Source of the DNA: a virus
Length of the DNA: 56,400 nucleotides
IMG/VR virus record: IMGVR_UViG_3300020121_000067
Location: 1 to 56,400 of that record
Strand: one strand, 5' to 3'
The notes under the pieces were generated by a model, which searched no databases, was not told the origin of the DNA, and saw only the letters and a list, made by a program, of their open reading frames with translations. Made by a program: the position numbers and the translations under genes. Position 1 is the first letter of the stretch. Every line of letters begins with the position of its first letter. Positions 14,894 to 43,514 of this stretch are shown here, one piece after another.

Positions 14894-15172
14894 TTAACGA
14901 AAATATTTAATCCTGCCGAGCCGATCCTTCTCCACCGACCGCGCGCGCTTGTACTGTTGCATCGTCGGATGCTCGGCCACGAACCGCTTGAACTCCGGCG
15001 CGGTGCGCACCTGCACGGAGATGATCTTGCGGATGTCGCGGCAAGCGGTGCAGCCGAAGCAATAATGAGTCACGTATCCATGCTCGCGGTGCTCCTCCAC
15101 GAGGATCATGGAGTCACGCGGGGCCTCGGGTGGATGATCGGGACTCTTACAAAGTGGTGGCTTCTGCGGCAT
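14894..15172 (-). CDS. Small Cys-containing protein, 92 aa
   Basis: The best start is ATG at 15172, overlapping the TGA of the 250-aa gene (TGATG); the longer upstream reading is a shadow of that gene. The product starts MPQKPPLCKSPDHPPEAPRD and contains YCFGCTACRDI, with a basic C-terminus (RARSVEKDRLGRIKYFR). Probably zinc-binding. Function unknown. Confidence 0.7.
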   Translation of the reverse strand: MPQKPPLCKSPDHPPEAPRDSMILVEEHREHGYVTHYCFGCTACRDIRKIISVQVRTAPEFKRFVAEHPTMQQYKRARSVEKDRLGRIKYFR

Positions 15173-15924
15173 CAGTGCCTCACTCCGAACCTGCGAATCT
15201 TTCCACTCCCACGACACACTGGACATGCGGCCTGCGAAGCTCCGCCATCGGGCAGCGCGACCTGCATGGTTCCACTGCCGCCACACCTGCCGCAGGGATC
15301 GCTCGCCGGGGATTCCTCCAGCCTGCGACGTTCGTTCATCGCCTTGCGTCTCGCTGCGGGAGTTTCAGCGAGGTTTATATCGGCCTCGGCGGTTTCGAGT
15401 CCCGCTGCTACCGCGTCGCGGTCTCCTTCCGCTGCTTCTCGGATGGCTTCGGCTTGAGGGTCTTCAGCATAATCTGTGTCGTCCTGCGTATGGCCATCAG
15501 GTTGTTCAGTTGCTTCCGACACGCTTCTATATTCTTGTCTATTTGTCGAAGGCACTTTTCTAGCGTCATGTGATCCTCCAGCGGCGGCGTTAACCGCAAA
15601 CATCTTCGTGTCCGTTGGCGTCACCAGCATCAGCGATTCCACGTCGGCGGGGAGTGACTGCACCACGGCGCTGACCACCGAGCTGAACGCGAGGTCGTGG
15701 ATGCGCAGCACGGCGATGGCTCCATGACGGAAGAGAGATAACACCGGTGGAGTAGAGTCGAGGGAGCGCGGGCCAGTGGTTATGGGCTTAGCGGCGGATG
15801 CCACTGGCTGAGAGGTTGCGCTCCTGCTACGCGGGATGAAGTGTCCCCGCGAGTCACGTTGTCGTGGGGGGATCTGGCTCGGCGGTGCTGAGTTTGTCTG
15901 CATGGTTTTCTTCCGGGTTGGCAT
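15172..15924 (-). CDS. Protein with C-terminal DnaJ-type zinc motif
   Basis: Encodes 250 residues from ATG at 15924 (MPTRKKTMQTNSAPPSQIPP). It has a Ser/Pro-rich disordered start, a short folded core (VLSLFRHGAIAVLRIHDLAF), an acidic disordered middle and a C-terminal pair CGRCGGSG and CPVCRGSG, like one DnaJ zinc repeat. The disordered middle is overprinted by a separate short gene (15408-15569). Its N-terminus overlaps the upstream gene by 71 bases. Function unknown. Confidence 0.7.
   Translation of the reverse strand: MPTRKKTMQTNSAPPSQIPPRQRDSRGHFIPRSRSATSQPVASAAKPITTGPRSLDSTPPVLSLFRHGAIAVLRIHDLAFSSVVSAVVQSLPADVESLMLVTPTDTKMFAVNAAAGGSHDARKVPSTNRQEYRSVSEATEQPDGHTQDDTDYAEDPQAEAIREAAEGDRDAVAAGLETAEADINLAETPAARRKAMNERRRLEESPASDPCGRCGGSGTMQVALPDGGASQAACPVCRGSGKIRRFGVRH
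15408..15569 (-). CDS. Overprinted 53-aa helical protein
   Basis: ATG at 15569 has a strong GGAGGATCAC ribosome site and opens 53 codons inside the 250-aa gene, in another frame. The product is a regular amphipathic basic helix (MTLEKCLRQIDKNIEACRKQ onward, ending EKQRKETATR), far more protein-like than a random shadow. The host frame at this point encodes a low-complexity acidic linker, which tolerates overprinting. Likely a true nested gene, function unknown. Confidence 0.55.
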   Translation of the reverse strand: MTLEKCLRQIDKNIEACRKQLNNLMAIRRTTQIMLKTLKPKPSEKQRKETATR

Positions 15925-17328: not shown

Positions 17329-18009
17329 TTACTTCGTGGATTGCTGCATCGCGATGAGCGTACTACTGTTCTCGCCAGAGTGCAACAAATATTGCTCGGC
17401 TATGTAGCGGGAGTAGGCGGGAGGGATTGCCTCCCGCGTCTCATGTCGTGTCATCCACGTCAGCCCCATCTCCCTGCCCCATAGCTTCTCTGGGTCTTGC
17501 CTGCCAAACTCCGCGTAGATGCGCTGACGACTTTCCTCCCGATGAGGATTCAACACTGGCTTATCCACTTTACAACGCGGGCGCGACGCGGGCAGGAATG
17601 GAGACTCGAACAGCCTATGCCGATGTACTCGCATCCCGAACATGGTTCCACACAATACCAAGGGATTACGCAGTGGCGCGCCCACTACATTCTCAATGAC
17701 CCACGGAACTCCCAGCTTTAACAATAGCTCCCGAAGAGGTTCTATCAACATCGGTTGCGGGGCGGCTAAATGCCGCATAGCAGCCGAATACGACTGGCAT
17801 GGCGGACTGGCCCATATGAAATCGAACTTCCTTCCTATACGCCTCGCTACGGCAATCGCATCGCCCTGAATAAAATCATGTCCACAGTAGTTCTTCTGCC
17901 ACTTGATATCCACTCCCGTAACGTGAGCCTCAGGCCACGCCTGAATCATTCCCATCGTGGCCCCGCCCGCGCAACAATACAAATCCAGCACCCGCCGTGG
18001 AGGATTCAT
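17329..18009 (-). CDS. C5 cytosine DNA methyltransferase, short form
   Basis: Encodes 226 residues from ATG at 18009, overlapping the stop of the zinc-ribbon gene. The motifs come in order: motif I DLYCCAGGA (9-17, SAM binding), motif IV SPPCQS with catalytic Cys71, motif VI ENV (106-108), motif VIII HRHRLFE, and a motif X-like IPPAYSRYIAEQ near the end. The target-recognition region is short compared with about 330-400 residues in bacterial enzymes. It probably methylates phage DNA to block host restriction; no partner endonuclease was seen. Specificity cannot be read. Confidence 0.9.
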   Translation of the reverse strand: MNPPRRVLDLYCCAGGATMGMIQAWPEAHVTGVDIKWQKNYCGHDFIQGDAIAVARRIGRKFDFIWASPPCQSYSAAMRHLAAPQPMLIEPLRELLLKLGVPWVIENVVGAPLRNPLVLCGTMFGMRVHRHRLFESPFLPASRPRCKVDKPVLNPHREESRQRIYAEFGRQDPEKLWGREMGLTWMTRHETREAIPPAYSRYIAEQYLLHSGENSSTLIAMQQSTK

Positions 18010-19697: not shown

Positions 19698-19919
19698 ATG
19701 CCACGTATGCACAAAACAGCCCAGATAGAGCAGCAGTTGCCGATATTACTGGAATACGTCCGTATCATGCCACAGCGGGATCGCGATTATATCCCGCAAC
19801 TGATTGCCAGCGCTGAGACCATCTTGTATGCCATTCAAGAGGGTATGATTTCGCGGGACGGTGACACGTTTGAATTGACGGAGGAAGGTCTGAAGGTGTG
19901 GGGCGAGGTGACAGCATGA
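19698..19919 (+). CDS. Small early protein, 73 aa
   Basis: ATG at 19698 behind GGAGGATTTTTCACC. It is helical (HKTAQIEQQLPILLEYVRIM) with a C-terminal segment that looks like part of a winged helix (MISRDGDTFELTEEGLKVW). Its stop overlaps the next start (ATGA). Function unknown. Confidence 0.7.
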   Translation: MPRMHKTAQIEQQLPILLEYVRIMPQRDRDYIPQLIASAETILYAIQEGMISRDGDTFELTEEGLKVWGEVTA

Positions 19920-20521
19920 GAGTGCTTGTTGCCTGTGAGTTCTCAGGCATTGTGCGCCGTGCATTCCGCGACCGTGGTCATGATGCCATAAGCTGCGATC
20001 TCCTTCCGGCTGAAGACGGATCACAGTATCACTTTCAGAAGGATATTTTGGAGGTGTTAAGGGAATCAGATTCCGAAGCATGGGATCTGATGATCGCGCA
20101 TCCTCCCTGCACTTATCTGGCGAATAGCGGAGTACGCTGGCTTTATACAAATGGCGTGGGTAGCAGACGCAATGAAGAGAGATGGACGCTTATGCGGGAA
20201 GCCGCACAGTTCTTTCTCGCCCTGTGGAACAGCGGAATACCTAGGATAGCCATTGAAAATCCCGTCATGCATGGACATGCCCGCCAGATCATAAAAAGGG
20301 CAGCGGACCAGAGAATCCATCCCTATCAATTCGGGCATGGAGAAACCAAGGAAACTCTTCTATGGTTGAGAAATTTACCTGTATTGAAATATACGAATGT
20401 GGTCAGCGGCAGAGTTCCCAGAGTCCATCATGAGCCGCCATCGGCTGACAGGTGGAAGAACCGCAGTCGTACCTATCAGGGAATCGCGGATGCAATGGCG
20501 GATCAGTGGGGAAAGGCTTAG
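19916..20521 (+). CDS. C5-methyltransferase-like protein (second copy type)
   Basis: Encodes 201 residues from ATG at 19916, overlapping the TGA of the previous gene. It starts MRVLVACEFSG, a motif I-like SAM site, then HPPCTYLANSG with Cys65 in the catalytic PC position and ENP (114-116) in place of ENV. Motifs VIII to X and a target-recognition domain are missing. This is a common phage form of the cytosine-methyltransferase fold; whether it methylates DNA is not certain. It is only distantly like the enzyme at 17329-18009. Confidence 0.8.
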   Translation: MRVLVACEFSGIVRRAFRDRGHDAISCDLLPAEDGSQYHFQKDILEVLRESDSEAWDLMIAHPPCTYLANSGVRWLYTNGVGSRRNEERWTLMREAAQFFLALWNSGIPRIAIENPVMHGHARQIIKRAADQRIHPYQFGHGETKETLLWLRNLPVLKYTNVVSGRVPRVHHEPPSADRWKNRSRTYQGIADAMADQWGKA

Positions 20522-35502: not shown

Positions 35503-35700
35503 ATGCCGCCGCGATCAGACCTCCATCCCCGAGGCAGCGGTTACCACTCCGCCAAGGAGCTGGAGAGCATCCGCCTCGTGGCGAGGCGGGATCAGGACTC
35601 GCGGATTACGGTCTGCGCGGACTGCGGGCGGGAGCGAACCAACATAAAGCGTCACCGGGGGAGTAAACAATGCAAGAAGCCAAGAGCGATTACGACCTGA
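35503..35700 (+). CDS. C2HC-type zinc-finger protein, 65 aa
   Basis: ATG at 35503, immediately after the previous stop. CADCGRERTNIKRHRGSKQC near the C-terminus is a C2HC finger of the small phage type; the front is Pro/Arg-rich. Overlaps the helicase start by 31 bases. Likely nucleic-acid binding. Confidence 0.65.
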   Translation: MPPRSDLHPRGSGYHSAKELESIRLVARRDQDSRITVCADCGRERTNIKRHRGSKQCKKPRAITT

Positions 35701-37037
35701 TGGATGAGGGACTGGCGGAGGAACAGGTCGCGAGAGCCGAGACTCCACCGCCGTGCAAGTTCACCACCGGTTGCGCCGGGACGGGAAAGACCTACAACGC
35801 GGTGAAGGCCGTGCAGGCCGATCCCAGCAGCGGCATCTTGAGTTCCACCACCGGAATCTCCGCCGTGAACCTCGGCGCAATCACGATCAATAGCCTTCTT
35901 AAATATAGTGATGTGAAGGTGATGCGCGATCACTTCCTCACCGGGGCACTCTCCCGCGTGCTCCATCCACTCGCGAAGGCCCATCGCTGGCTGGTCATAG
36001 ATGAAATCTCCATGTACGGCGGCGACGCGCTGGACATTCTCTATCGCGCGGTAGAGGAGGCGAATCGCTACGTGGATGTACCGGAGCCGATGGGGATACA
36101 CATCATCGGGGATCTAGCGCAGCTACCGCCGGTGAGGGCGCCGTGGGTGTTCACCGCCGCGTGCTGGGAGCGGTTCCGGGAGAACACGGAGACATTGACC
36201 AAGGTGTGGAGGCAGGGCGACACGCGGTTCCTCTCGGCGCTGAATCTAGTTCGCTGTGGTGAAGGAGCTGCTGCTGCCGAAGCCCTGACCTCCCTCGGAG
36301 CAGTGTTCCACTCTGCGCTGGACACTGAGTTCGACGGGACCACGATCCTGCCGCGGAACGATCAGGTCTAGCGCTACAACGCGCTGGCGCTGGATCGAGT
36401 GCCGGGGAAGAAGTTCAAGGTGACCTCCCGCCGCTGGGGCCAGCAACGCAGCGAGTGGGGCCAGAACATCCGTACGAAGGAGTGGGGGATCCCACCGGAG
36501 GTGGAGCTGAAGGTCGGGGCGTATGTGATGCTGCTGGCCAATCACTCAGAATTTGAATGGGTAAACGGAGATTGTGGCTGGATAGTTGCCTATGGAATTG
36601 ATGGCCCGGATACATGGATTGAAATCAGGCTGGTAAGAACTAACAATGTAATTAGGCTTATGCCGCTGGTGCGCGGCGTAGAGTCCTCCGACCGTCCCGC
36701 CAGCTGGAGCTCCACCGCGCAGAAGGTCCCGGCATCGCAGGATGACGGTGGCTGGCTCCCACGACCGCACTACCGCAGCCGGGTGAAGCGGTATGTGAGT
36801 GGGCAGATCAGTTACTTTCCATTGCGGTTGGCTTATGCTACGTCGGTTCATAAGAGCCAGAGCCTCACCTTGGACAGAGTACAAGTGGACTTCCGGAACA
36901 ACTTCTTTAGTCAGCCAGCCATGCTCTATGTTTCTTTGAGCCGCTGTCGCTCACTCCAGGGACTGCGGCTCGTGGGGCAACCTGAGGTGTTCGCCAAGCA
37001 CTGCAACTTCGATGAAAGGATTCGTGAATGGTTATAG
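35670..37037 (+). CDS. PIF1/Dda-like SF1B helicase interrupted by an in-frame amber codon
   Basis: ATG at 35670 behind GGGGGAGTAAACA. Codons 1-233 hold Walker A GCAGTGKT (34-41), DEISM, GDLAQLPPV and LTKVWRQGD. Then TAG at 36369-36371 (codon 234) breaks ILPRNDQV from RYNALALDR, and the same frame runs on to 37037 with YATSVHKSQSLTLDRV and LYVSLSRCRSL, the C-terminal helicase motifs. Dda-like proteins normally continue NxQV-x-RYNxxAL here, so only one residue is lost. TAG is an ordinary stop elsewhere in this genome. Expected full length is 455 residues, normal for the family. Confidence 0.8.
36369..36371 (+). other. In-frame amber codon in the helicase gene
   Basis: TAG in the context GTC TAG CGC TAC. 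Both flanks are clearly homologous to one continuous helicase and no frame change occurs. It could be a nonsense mutation, read error, suppressed codon or readthrough site. A restart at ATG 37066 cannot rescue the helicase since that is past the gene. Confidence 0.75.
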
Positions 37038-38010: not shown

Positions 38011-38564
38011 TTGACGATCTCGGAAAGCTATCGAAGCATTTGGACGAAGTAGCAAGGAAATGCGATTCAGAGGCGGGAGAAGAAATCATGAGTGACGTTA
38101 CAAGAAGAAAGCCACGGGAAGCGCAAGGAACGCCGGAGCCGCCGACGCGCAACCTAAACGAAGTACGTGAGGATATTGGCGATGCCATTCAAGCACTACG
38201 ATCAGGTTGGCCAGCGAATGATGTGATTTCAATACTGCAAGAGTGCAACGATTCGCTGGCGCTGGCCGGGCCGCAGAACGGGCAATGGTGGGTAAGGGTG
38301 GAAGATCGGTTGCCAGAAGATGATTCTGATGTTTTTGCGGCAATATGGTGGCGCAATGGCGACAATCCCGCATATAGCCACTACGTCATCCACGATTGCT
38401 CCTATTACGAAGGCGGCACCGGATCAGGGCAGAAGATATTCACGGATTGCGAAGGTGAAGAGTTCGAGCACACCGACGTGTCGTACTGGATTTACAAGAA
38501 AGATTTAGCCGCTGCGCTCCCCGCTCCACCTACCGGGGACGCGCCAACGGAGAAGAAACTGTGA
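38007..38564 (+). CDS. DUF551-containing protein, 185 aa
   Basis: ATG at 38007 overlaps the previous TGA. The end holds WWVRVEDRLPEDDSDVFAAI and YWIYKKDLAAALPAPP, the two halves of the DUF551 pattern (WxxVxDxLPxxxxxVL and a WxPLPxPP close) found in many phages near recombination genes. The N-terminal half is helical. Function of the domain is not known. Coupled to the polymerase by GTGA. Confidence 0.8.
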   Translation: MIDDLGKLSKHLDEVARKCDSEAGEEIMSDVTRRKPREAQGTPEPPTRNLNEVREDIGDAIQALRSGWPANDVISILQECNDSLALAGPQNGQWWVRVEDRLPEDDSDVFAAIWWRNGDNPAYSHYVIHDCSYYEGGTGSGQKIFTDCEGEEFEHTDVSYWIYKKDLAAALPAPPTGDAPTEKKL

Positions 38565-41500
38565 GCCATCGCCACAAGCCGCAGTCGTGTGTTGGCTGTC
38601 CGTGTCATGACCATGGGAACGATTTCTCCGCCGTGGAAGGCACAGGCTCAAGCGGAGTTATGTTCGTTGGCGAGGGCAGCGGAGAACATGAGCAGCTGGA
38701 TCAGCTTCCATTTCGACCCTATGCTCCCAGTGGAGCTGTGCTAGAACGCTGCCTGCGGAGAATGGGACTGGACAGGAAGCAGTTCTCCATCACCAACTGC
38801 ATTCGCTGCCGGCCGCGGAAGAACTGGTTAGAGTCGGCGCCGTGGGAATACTCCGCGCTCCGCCAGTGCAGGCCGAACCTCGACTCTGCGATTGCGCAGT
38901 ACCGTCCGAGGTGCATTGTCGCTCTCGGAGGAGTGGCGCTGCGGGAGCTGACCGGGGAGGCTGGCGAGGCGAGGGGGGTAACGCATCTTGCGGGCTACAT
39001 CATGCCATTAGCATCACAGACATCAGAACACTCAGTAACCTCGCCAGATGATGCGCCTTGGGCCACTAAGCGAATTCCAAACGTAGGAGCCATTCCAACT
39101 ATCGCTAATTTCCATCCAAGCTACCTCCGCCGGGGCAAGGCCTCGCACCAGGGAGTGTTCTCGCGGATCATCCAGCGGGGGCTGGTGGTCGCATCAGGCA
39201 GGGATAGGAATTACATGTGGGGGGTCGATCCTGATGACTCGGCGACATGGCAGCAGCCGGACGGATCACGCTTGCAATACTGGACTCACCCCACGATGGA
39301 CCAGGCGCGGTCAGTGTTGCGCTACCTCGAAGACAATCCCAATCTCCCGGTGGCCAAGGACATCGAAACCAGTGAATCATCATCGCTGGATGAGGACGCT
39401 CGGGAGGGATTCAGCGACACCGAGGTGCGACTGTTCCAGCTTAGCTACCAGCCCGGGACCGGGATAGCGATTCCCTACACGGGAGAGTTCAAAGACATCG
39501 TGAGACGAATGCTGCATCTCAGGAACCCGTTCTATGGTCACAACTGGGACAACTTCGATCATAAGGTGTTGCGCGCAGCCGCGGCACGTGAGGGATGGAC
39601 GTATGCGCCAACACAACGATGCTTCGACACGCTTGATATGTATCATCATTGGCAGCCTGACCTACCTGCTCATCTCCAGTTTTGCTCTAGCTTTATCAAT
39701 TTTCCTTTCCCTTGGAAGCATCTGGCCGCTACTAATATTGAGTTCTATGGTATTTGTGACGTGGATGCTGATTTACAACTTGGACAATTTCTTGAACGGA
39801 CGTTGAAAAAGGACAATTTATGGGGATCAGGCAATGAATATTCCCTGACCACGGGCTACACCGGACAGGAGCGCGAAGTCCGGCCAGTGCTGGCTGCGAT
39901 GGAGGATCGCGGGGTGCCGATTGATGACGCGGCGAGGATCAGGCTGGGAGCGGAGTTCGAGGCCGCACAGCGGGAACTTGGCGCTGCATTGCTACCGAGG
40001 TTCCCGGAGTCGGCGAAAAAACTGGATCCCTACAAGACATTCCCGCCGGAGTTGAAAAAGCTGCCCGAGGCTGAATGGTCGAAGCTGTTCCGGGAGCCTG
40101 ACAAGTGGAAATGCAAATGTGGTCGTGAGAACAAGATGGATGCTCTTGCCTGTGGGAAGTGCGCACGGTCGCAGGACGATGGAAAGATAAAAGCTGGGAA
40201 GTGGTATCGCTACGGCCAGCGTGAGGTGGATGAGGCAGGGCTGGACGCTGGAGGGGAACCCACGCTGGTGAAGGCACTCCGCTGGTGCTACATCCCGGAG
40301 TTCAATCCTAACTCCGGCAAGATGCTCATCGAATATATGAAGGCGATGGGGCATAAGGTTCCTAAGTCCAAGATCGAGGACGATGAAGGCAACCAGAAAG
40401 ACACCACCGCGGCGAAGGAACTCCAGCGCCTGGCAGTGAAGACCAATGATGACTTTTACCTGAAGGTGATCGAGTACCGCGGGCTGACGAAGCTGCGCGG
40501 AACCTATGTCGATGGCTTTCGTCCGGGGAGCGATGGCCGGGTGCATACGACGTTCACGTTTCAAACGGCGATTGCGCAACTCTCGGCCAGGAATCCGAAC
40601 ACAACTAACATTCCTAAGCTCAAGCCCACTCCCGCGCTGGCCAAGGCCATCCGGGGCATGGTACGTGCGGACGATGGCTGTGTGTTGGCTGAGGTGGATT
40701 TCAAGTCCTGCCACGTGATCACGCTGGGGCTGCTGGCCAATGATCCAATTTACACGCGTCTTGGCAGGTTGGACATTCATAGCGCTGTGGCTGGCCATTT
40801 CCTTGGACACTGGAACCTGAAGGAGATTATCAATGAAACGGATGAACAACTCCTTGCTAGATTTAAATGGCTTAAGAGCGACCCGGAACGCAAGCGTGTC
40901 CGCGATGACCAGGCCAAGCATGCAATCCTCGGAATCGGAAATGGACTCCGCGCGAAGGGACTATTTGAACGATATATGGAGTCGTTTCCGCCGCGAACGT
41001 GTCCATCCTGTGGAGGAACCACTAGAGTCGCTGGCGTCCGAGGACTTAAGAGATGTCCTATGTGCGGAGGAACTGGACGGCAGTCTGGATTAGGCATCGC
41101 GGATTCAATTTTGTCAATGTGCGAGGAAGACCTGTTCGGTGCGGTGTTTATATATCAGGAGGAGCAGCGCAAGGAAGCACATGAGACACAACGCCTGCGT
41201 ACCCCCTTCGGTCATCAGCGGAGGTTCTACGAGGTCTATCGCTGGGATGGTCGCAAGGGGATCTGGTCGCACGGTGATCAGGCAGAGGAGGCAGTCGCTT
41301 ATCGCCTTGCCAACACGGCTCATGCTCATATGCGAGAGGTTATGAAGGAGCTGGCGCAGCAGGGGCTGGATGAGAAGTATGGCCTGTTCAACATGGTACA
41401 CGACTCGCTGATGTTCCACTTCCCGGAAGCGTTACTGGAGTCATTCCCCCGGGAGGTGTTCCCGGTGATGACCGCCGAGTCCAAGGTCATGCTGGGACTG

Positions 41501-41620
41501 TGGCTGGGAGTGGAAGGTAGCTGGGGTAAACGATGGTCAGAGATGAAAGACTTGGAGACTCCCACGGTGAATCCTGCTACACTGCCCGCAATGGAGGCCA
41601 CCACTGCATGTGTTGTGTAG
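38561..41620 (+). CDS. UDG-exonuclease-PolA fusion DNA polymerase with two zinc inserts
   Basis: Encodes 1019 residues from GTG at 38561. Residues 1-200 are a family-4-type uracil-DNA glycosylase: Cys10/13/83/103 for a 4Fe-4S cluster, GEGSGEHEQ (37-45) as motif A and HPSYLRR (His185) as motif B. Next a DEDD 3'-5' exonuclease with KDIET (Asp267, Glu269) and NFDHK (Asp333). The family A polymerase has motif A EVDFKSCH (Asp713; His718 in place of the steric-gate Glu), O-helix RDDQAKHAILGIGNG (Lys786) and motif C MVHDS (Asp948, Ser for Glu). Zinc ribbons are inserted at C518-C534 and C814-C835. It is the phage replicase, unless the altered residues change its job. Confidence 0.9.
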   Translation: MSHRHKPQSCVGCPCHDHGNDFSAVEGTGSSGVMFVGEGSGEHEQLDQLPFRPYAPSGAVLERCLRRMGLDRKQFSITNCIRCRPRKNWLESAPWEYSALRQCRPNLDSAIAQYRPRCIVALGGVALRELTGEAGEARGVTHLAGYIMPLASQTSEHSVTSPDDAPWATKRIPNVGAIPTIANFHPSYLRRGKASHQGVFSRIIQRGLVVASGRDRNYMWGVDPDDSATWQQPDGSRLQYWTHPTMDQARSVLRYLEDNPNLPVAKDIETSESSSLDEDAREGFSDTEVRLFQLSYQPGTGIAIPYTGEFKDIVRRMLHLRNPFYGHNWDNFDHKVLRAAAAREGWTYAPTQRCFDTLDMYHHWQPDLPAHLQFCSSFINFPFPWKHLAATNIEFYGICDVDADLQLGQFLERTLKKDNLWGSGNEYSLTTGYTGQEREVRPVLAAMEDRGVPIDDAARIRLGAEFEAAQRELGAALLPRFPESAKKLDPYKTFPPELKKLPEAEWSKLFREPDKWKCKCGRENKMDALACGKCARSQDDGKIKAGKWYRYGQREVDEAGLDAGGEPTLVKALRWCYIPEFNPNSGKMLIEYMKAMGHKVPKSKIEDDEGNQKDTTAAKELQRLAVKTNDDFYLKVIEYRGLTKLRGTYVDGFRPGSDGRVHTTFTFQTAIAQLSARNPNTTNIPKLKPTPALAKAIRGMVRADDGCVLAEVDFKSCHVITLGLLANDPIYTRLGRLDIHSAVAGHFLGHWNLKEIINETDEQLLARFKWLKSDPERKRVRDDQAKHAILGIGNGLRAKGLFERYMESFPPRTCPSCGGTTRVAGVRGLKRCPMCGGTGRQSGLGIADSILSMCEEDLFGAVFIYQEEQRKEAHETQRLRTPFGHQRRFYEVYRWDGRKGIWSHGDQAEEAVAYRLANTAHAHMREVMKELAQQGLDEKYGLFNMVHDSLMFHFPEALLESFPREVFPVMTAESKVMLGLWLGVEGSWGKRWSEMKDLETPTVNPATLPAMEATTACVV

Positions 41621-42710: not shown

Positions 42711-43071
42711 TTTTGTCGATCAACAACTGCCCATCGGACTGGTACTCGTGTTTGTGCAGAACTGGCTCAAGCAGCAGTCTTGGTTCCCTTGGCTGAACTA
42801 CCAATCCACCAAGGCCAATCACGCGTTCGCGATCATCACCACTGGCCTCGCCACGTTCGGCGTTCACATCTCTCACACCGGGACATTCGTCTCGGGAGGC
42901 TCCGTCCTGCTGACCTTCCCCGCCGGAACGGTGATGCTGGCAGGGCTGTGGCACTGGATACAGCAGTATGCCGTGACCAAGGGAGTGTACACGGGACTGC
43001 AATCGCAGTTGAATCCGCCAGCCGCGCAACAGCCAGCAGCGGTGGTTGAGACTAAGGATTTGAAGAAATGA
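42703..43071 (+). CDS. Membrane protein in the lysis module, candidate holin
   Basis: Encodes 122 residues from ATG at 42703, coupled to the HNH stop by overlap. Two or three hydrophobic stretches (QLPIGLVLVFVQNWL, AFAIITTGLATFGV, LTFPAGTVMLAGLWHW) and a Pro/Ala/Gln-rich charged tail. Position after the endolysin and the membrane spans suit a holin, but no family motif was seen. Confidence 0.65.
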   Translation: MNNFVDQQLPIGLVLVFVQNWLKQQSWFPWLNYQSTKANHAFAIITTGLATFGVHISHTGTFVSGGSVLLTFPAGTVMLAGLWHWIQQYAVTKGVYTGLQSQLNPPAAQQPAAVVETKDLKK

Positions 43072-43514
43072 GCGGAGCCGCATACAACACGGGCAACTCT
43101 AAACAGGATTACGAGACTCCACTTGATTTCATCGCAGCAGCAGAGAAGCGATTCGGCAAGCTGGACTTGGATCTGGCGGCTAGGGATGACAACAAAAAAG
43201 CTCCTGCTTATTTATCAGACTCACTCAACACAGACTGGCCTACAGATAAATTGTGTTGGCTCAATCCACCATTTGCACGAGTCGAACCGTGGGCGAGGAA
43301 GTGCCATGAGTCGGGCTCCAAAGTGTTGTTCCTCGTCCCTGCTAGCACCGGATCAAAGTGGTTCATCGACTACGTATTCATGAAATCGCTGGTGCTGTTT
43401 CTGTACCCGCGCATTCCATTCGATAAGACTCGGCCCAAATGGGGATTTCCTAAGGACTGCATACTGGCAGTCTACGGAGGCACCCCCGGATTTGAAACTT
43501 GGAAATGGAAATAA
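43068..43514 (+). CDS. Phage Dam-type N6-adenine methyltransferase
   Basis: Encodes 148 residues from ATG at 43068 overlapping the previous TGA. It opens with DYETPLDFIAAAEKRFGKLD, then LDLAARDDNKK, WLNPPF (motif IV, N-P-P-F) and VLFLVPASTGSKWF, the usual order of the short phage Dam family. It would add m6A, probably to evade restriction. Its place in the lysis module is unusual but seen in other phages. Confidence 0.88.
   Translation: MSGAAYNTGNSKQDYETPLDFIAAAEKRFGKLDLDLAARDDNKKAPAYLSDSLNTDWPTDKLCWLNPPFARVEPWARKCHESGSKVLFLVPASTGSKWFIDYVFMKSLVLFLYPRIPFDKTRPKWGFPKDCILAVYGGTPGFETWKWK

Follow-up and report, generated by a model that had tools for sequence, protein, structure and literature searches.

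Architecture of the fusion gene

The stretch of DNA analysed here (the window) corresponds to a complete IMG/VR virus record with a length of 56.4 kb. It carries a soil-phage gene in which one open reading frame (ORF) joins a uracil-DNA glycosylase (UDG) to a 3'-5' exonuclease and a DNA polymerase of family A (PolA). The following features can be assigned:

38561..41620, + strand: UDG - 3'-5' exonuclease - family A DNA polymerase, single 1019-aa ORF (profile matches, predicted structure)
38561..39193, + strand: family-4-like Fe-S UDG domain, residues ~1-211 (cysteines C10, C13, C83, C103; pocket residues E38, G39, E44, F51, N79, N88, H185)
39278..39811, + strand: DEDDy 3'-5' exonuclease domain, residues ~240-417 (D267, E269, D333, Y396, D400; secondary structure of the model)
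40112..40162, + strand: zinc ribbon 1, residues ~518-534, CxC...CxxC (only in the window sequence; pLDDT <50 over most of it)
40298..41548, + strand: family A polymerase core, residues ~580-996 (Pfam, fold match)
40577..40579, + strand: Gln673 replacing the otherwise invariant Arg668 of E. coli numbering (alignment, survey)
40697..40714, + strand: motif A, D713-F-K-S-C-H718, catalytic Asp retained and His in place of the steric-gate Glu710 (alignment, survey)
40901..40945, + strand: motif B / O helix, R781...K786...L790...N794-G795 (alignment)
41000..41065, + strand: zinc ribbon 2, residues 814-835, CPxC...CPxC (in 11 of 23 clade sequences compared)
41297..41311, + strand: Ala913 and Ala917 replacing Asn845 and Gln849 (alignment)
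41399..41407, + strand: motif C, H947-D948-S949 (alignment)

The ORF starts with GTG, overlaps the upstream stop by 4 bases and encodes 1019 aa without interruption. Its product is matched by the Pfam families DNA_pol_A (5.5e-26; 91.8 bits, cut-off 34.3) and UDG (4e-19, above the cut-off of the Pfam UDG superfamily) as well as by the PHROG 17 DNA polymerase profile (2.7e-51). Together with an NCBIfam match and the catalytic residues, this bears out the proposal of the initial annotation that one 1019-aa frame combines UDG, DEDD exonuclease and PolA, and all residues named there were found (Cys10/13/83/103, His185, Asp713, Asp948, His718, Ser949, Asn794 and both Cys-pair inserts). The closest relatives are L001 and L002 with 79 and 77% identity, respectively. 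Since dN/dS against L001 is about 0.11 for the whole gene (0.14 for the UDG part and 0.07 for the polymerase part), the ORF evolves like a real gene that is subject to purifying selection. An AlphaFold2 model built with 22 relatives reaches a mean pLDDT of 73, with values >90 across much of the palm and low-confidence stretches including 153-176 and 515-548, the latter corresponding to the zinc ribbon 1 insert. Best PDB matches of the model are the Klenow, Bst and Taq polymerases at a target TM of about 0.7, indicating a Klenow-type fold. Bacterial relatives were not found in a profile search of genome contigs with an alignment of the fusion. The fusion enzyme is real and conserved.

The UDG domain was initially described as complete-looking, and the comparison with Thermus UDGa, the uracil pocket of which is formed by E41, G42, E47, F54, N80, N89 and H155 (PMC5387724), fully agrees with this view, as all seven residues are matched by the pocket residues listed above and the four Fe-S cysteines of family 4 are retained. 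However, the NCBIfam family-4 profile matches (3e-18) at only 66 bits versus a cut-off of 125, and the domain is therefore termed family-4-like rather than a family 4 member. Moreover, motif 1 reads GE[GA]SG in UDGs of the window type and GE[GA]PG in family 4, and the domain is joined to a polymerase, unlike Thermus UDGa. Identity with UdgX, which is marked by a GEQPG motif and a KRRIH loop (PMC10359453), was rejected, as the window UDG has GEGSG and CRPRKNW instead. Among UDGs of the close clade, E38, E44, N79, H185 and the Fe-S cysteines are invariant, while position 39 varies between Ala and Gly, position 51 between Phe and Leu, and N88 is replaced once by Asp. Judging from these residues, uracil excision by the window UDG is likely. 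The exonuclease predicted earlier could be specified as DEDDy type, with all five catalytic residues of the DxE, D and YxxxD signature in place.

Intein-like inserts were seen in three related loci at three different sites, namely a 271-aa insert at the UDG Fe-S cysteine matching Cys83 of the fusion (L002:5998-9783), an insert in the pre-motif A segment of the polymerase domain (L025:5746-8559) and a 244-aa insert after motif A of a His-gate polymerase (L077:2665-6417). In addition, a DnaJ-type zinc ribbon motif is found in the UDG-exonuclease linker of L001, L007 and L009 and at 15172-15924 (-) of the window; such motifs occur at several unrelated places in these genomes, as if representing a mobile loop module.

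Active-site replacements and the His-gate clade

Alignment to E. coli Pol I equates D713 with D705, H718 with E710, K786 with K758, L790 with F762, N794 with Y766 and H947-D948-S949 with H881-D882-E883. Accordingly, both metal-binding Asp (713 and 948) are kept and the Glu steric gate is lost to His718, as had been claimed. Three further changes not mentioned before are Q673, A913 and A917, corresponding to R668, N845 and Q849, respectively (E. coli numbering is used in the following). Equivalents of the family A catalytic residues D705, D882, K758, R754 and H881 are all present, the match to R754 requiring one inserted residue. In contrast, R668, E710 and Q849, which are usual family A traits and not the definition of the family, are replaced by Q, H and A.

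Other peculiarities pointed out in the initial annotation proved less distinctive. The motif C variant HDS is present but unremarkable, as position 883 is occupied by A (15), S (8), E (5), Q (2) or D (2) in 32 comparison enzymes. Reading HDS as a hint of RNA polymerase-like behavior was rejected, Ser and Ala being commoner than Glu at this position among the phage PolAs compared. The replacement of the O-helix Tyr by Asn794 exists, but N, F and L are all found across the clade. Likewise, both zinc ribbons are there, but ribbon 1 is absent from the relatives with 77-79% identity and ribbon 2 is confined to one sub-branch, and the ribbons were thus rejected as a defining feature. As for the two residues on which the suspected novelty hinged, Ser949 turned out to be the norm among known phage PolAs; the same holds for His718, but within a clade for which a description was not found.

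This clade was delineated by aligning 34 members with 32 other family A polymerases (from E. coli, T7, other phages and viral contigs). Position 668 is Q in all 34 members versus R in 32/32 others, and position 710 is H in 34/34, with E (31) or D (1) in the others. Moreover, S707 is replaced by K and N845 by A or S in every member, whereas Q849, present in 32/32 others, gives way to A, S or T in 33 of 34. Leu replaces F762 in 33/34 members, and Y766 is substituted by N (21), F (12) or L (1). At the same time, equivalents of D705, R754 (again with one inserted residue), K758, G767, H881 and D882 are retained throughout (34/34). Among 138 non-redundant viral PolAs surveyed, the Q668/H710 type (Q/H) accounts for 44, and the remaining 94 all have E710, combined with R668 in 90 cases, Ser in one and an unreadable position in three; mixed Q/E or R/H types were not encountered among the 138. 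As the scans used patterns favoring one type or the other, these proportions do not represent frequencies in nature.

Two trees computed after masking of the trait columns still place the His-gate sequences together on the same side of one branch (SH-aLRT 100 and 99). According to these phylogenies, His718 marks a single deep clade of uncultivated phages with one origin. The clade is apparently new to description, as a paper on a His-gate PolA was not found in the literature searched, the coverage of which is incomplete. Its nearest rows, L225 and L217, have the ordinary R668 and E710. The sister row L217 additionally bears Asn at the O-helix Tyr position and is possibly an intermediate.

In E. 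coli Pol I, E710 functions as steric gate with position 762 as its helper (PMC13228545), while R668 and Q849 form hydrogen bonds to the primer-terminal base pair in the minor groove (PMC3347538). The clade-specific changes hence hit one coherent network, the former two positions gating the sugar and the latter two contacting the terminal pair.

UDG retention, genome context and proposed function

At the 44 Q/H loci, the UDG is encoded in the same ORF in 34 cases and in a separate ORF in eight, the remaining two loci being cut by contig ends; the UDG thus persists as a separate ORF where the fusion gene is split. In L028, L069, L073 and L074, UDG-exonuclease and polymerase reside in separate ORFs, with a gap of about 1.7 kb containing small ORFs in L028. 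E38, E44 and N79 are kept in 42/42 of the Q/H loci with UDG and H185 in 41, while N88 is changed to Asp in 10/42 and Fe-S cysteines are missing from some outlying members. In contrast, a UDG-like domain is found at only 44 of the 94 ordinary-gate loci, and all four of E38, E44, N79 and H185 are present in just 11 of these 44. The corresponding Fisher p of 3e-13 is descriptive only, as the compared rows are related, and the retention counts do not represent independent events, all of them falling within one clade. Turning to named phages, the UDG part has degenerated in the records of Triscuit, BHU-1 and Goe24, whereas MW202455 and MW202554 have it intact. In L225, an intact UDG ORF adjoins the R/E-gate polymerase. 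Since the sister rows have R/E gates and L225 an intact UDG, the UDG association predates the gate change and did not become necessary through it. Coupling of uracil detection to synthesis, as suggested earlier, appears plausible from these sequences and agrees with the intact UDG being strictly retained.

Poxvirus D4 is a UDG that serves as processivity module for the poxvirus polymerase. By analogy, the UDG domain might mainly bind DNA or support processivity, with excision being secondary. UDG-like domains on ordinary phage PolAs often outlast their catalytic residues (33/44, including Triscuit, BHU-1 and Goe24), and this persistence indicates that the UDG fold probably has a non-catalytic use beside ordinary PolAs. 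For the His-gate clade, however, such a role is rather unlikely, as pure binding would not need the essentially invariant E38, E44, N79 and H185.

PolA and UDG are encoded in all 19 related records, whereas a family B polymerase or PolC/DnaE was not found in these possibly incomplete records. Beyond the fusion, the window encodes a UvrD-like helicase, a topoisomerase-family protein, a PD-(D/E)XK nuclease, a Sak4-like protein and a Pif1/RecD-like helicase, a set suggestive of a recombination-rich replication module. A single TAG in frame (36369-36371) interrupts the Pif1/RecD-like helicase (35670-37037, +); it is ascribed to mutation or sequence error, since the alignment with L002, L007, L009 and L018 continues through this site without a change of frame. 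Three DNA methyltransferases are also predicted in the window, at 17329-18009 (-), 19898-20521 (+) and 43068-43514 (+).

Taken together, we consider it fairly probable that the phage uses the fusion as its own replicative polymerase, in which uracil excision is tethered and the minor-groove and sugar-gate network is rewired, while DNA is still made. The replicative role is inferred from PolA being the only DNA polymerase found in the 19 related records, and the recombination-rich module lends further support. The N-terminal family-4-type UDG would excise, or at least bind, uracil in DNA being copied or newly made, the exonuclease would proofread, and the polymerase would extend by normal two-metal chemistry. 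In ordinary enzymes, R668, Q849 and N845 would probe the primer-terminal pair from its minor groove, and E710 with its partner Y766 the sugar. This sensing set has been replaced together (R668 by Q, Q849 by A/S/T, N845 by A/S, E710 by H and Y766 by N/F), giving an active site that is rewired yet working and DNA-making, while the UDG tethered in cis would keep uracil out of the DNA. An AP endonuclease is needed to finish repair after uracil excision.

Alternatively, substrate choice might truly have changed, His718 and Asn/Phe794 admitting ribonucleotides or a non-standard base or sugar in conjunction with the loss of R668, N845 and Q849. In favor of this reading, steric gate, helper and minor-groove contacts are altered simultaneously, and DnaG N-terminal, Prim-Pol and Toprim_2 domains were not found in the 19 related, possibly incomplete records. 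However, the missing primase may reflect detection failure or use of the host primase, the proofreading residues are intact, and a bulky His may gate as well as Glu. Moreover, neither PurZ nor thymidylate synthase (ThyA) was found in 20 clade records (0/20 each) and dUTPase not in 19, all possibly incomplete. A changed substrate is thus given limited probability. The more far-reaching idea that the clade swapped the whole minor-groove and sugar-gate set and thereby its polymerizable substrates, with an obligatory tethered UDG policing the product, is likewise doubtful from the sequences at hand.

Host defense by dCTP deaminase raises dUTP, and the UDG could counter such systems by removing uracil just put in by the polymerase. 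As dUTPase and thymidylate synthase were not found in the related records, uracil is apparently not excluded from the nucleotide pool by these phage enzyme families, and the UDG is always kept. Nevertheless, excising uracil from both strands would be costly in itself, and this explanation is quite improbable.

Comparison with known systems

The UDG-exonuclease-PolA fusion is already known in phages and not special to the window. The same domain order is found in MW202455, Brevundimonas phage StAshley, vir526, Microcystis phage Mel-JY34 and Microbacterium phage Triscuit, with the UDG pocket kept in MW202455 and recognizable UDG motif-1 and HP motifs in StAshley, vir526 and Mel-JY34. Unlike the window, all five retain the ordinary gate with R668 and E710 (Asp at 710 in Mel-JY34). 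Polymerases of SPO1-like and other Herelleviridae, for which the relatives Goe24 and SBSphiC were compared, share PolA, exonuclease and the HDS motif C with the window but have the ordinary R/E/Y gate. Goe24 shows a weak UDG-superfamily N-terminus with eroded UDG residues; a paper describing a UDG domain for SPO1 or for phage polymerases was not found in the literature searched.

The 2-aminoadenine polymerase DpoZ of vibriophage phiVC8 has Ser in motif C and shares this as well as Leu at 762 with the clade, and Phe at 766 with L020-type relatives (PMC8599892). Unlike in the clade, the E710 and R668 positions are not among the deviations described for DpoZ. A Z-genome (2-aminoadenine) reading was rejected, as despite the DpoZ-like L762/F766/S883 the PurZ search described above was negative. 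Leu at position 762 has reportedly been observed in phage phiJL001 as well.

Virome PolAs with Leu762 occur together with non-ring helicases (PMC6302109), and the Leu762 groups (PMC6302109, PMC9069017) share with the window this residue as well as a non-ring SF1 helicase and a RecB-like nuclease in the genome. The 2022 virome PolA survey retained only sequences with a required Arg, printed as R688 (PMC9069017). Since position 668 is conserved in our alignment and 688 is not, R668 was probably meant, in which case the Gln668 clade has probably been filtered out of that survey. Nearly all family A polymerases possess Arg668, Glu710 and Gln849, and virome surveys filter on active-site residues. 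A natural clade replacing the three together represents a direct test of their purpose and might yield polymerases that tolerate new nucleotides. With an intact UDG beside the His gate versus frequent decay beside ordinary-gate PolAs, it becomes testable why phages join UDG to PolA. Compared with the known systems, what stands out is neither the fusion nor the ribbons nor HDS. It is that R668, E710, N845 and Q849 have been replaced in concert across a whole clade of polymerases in which the UDG is always retained intact.
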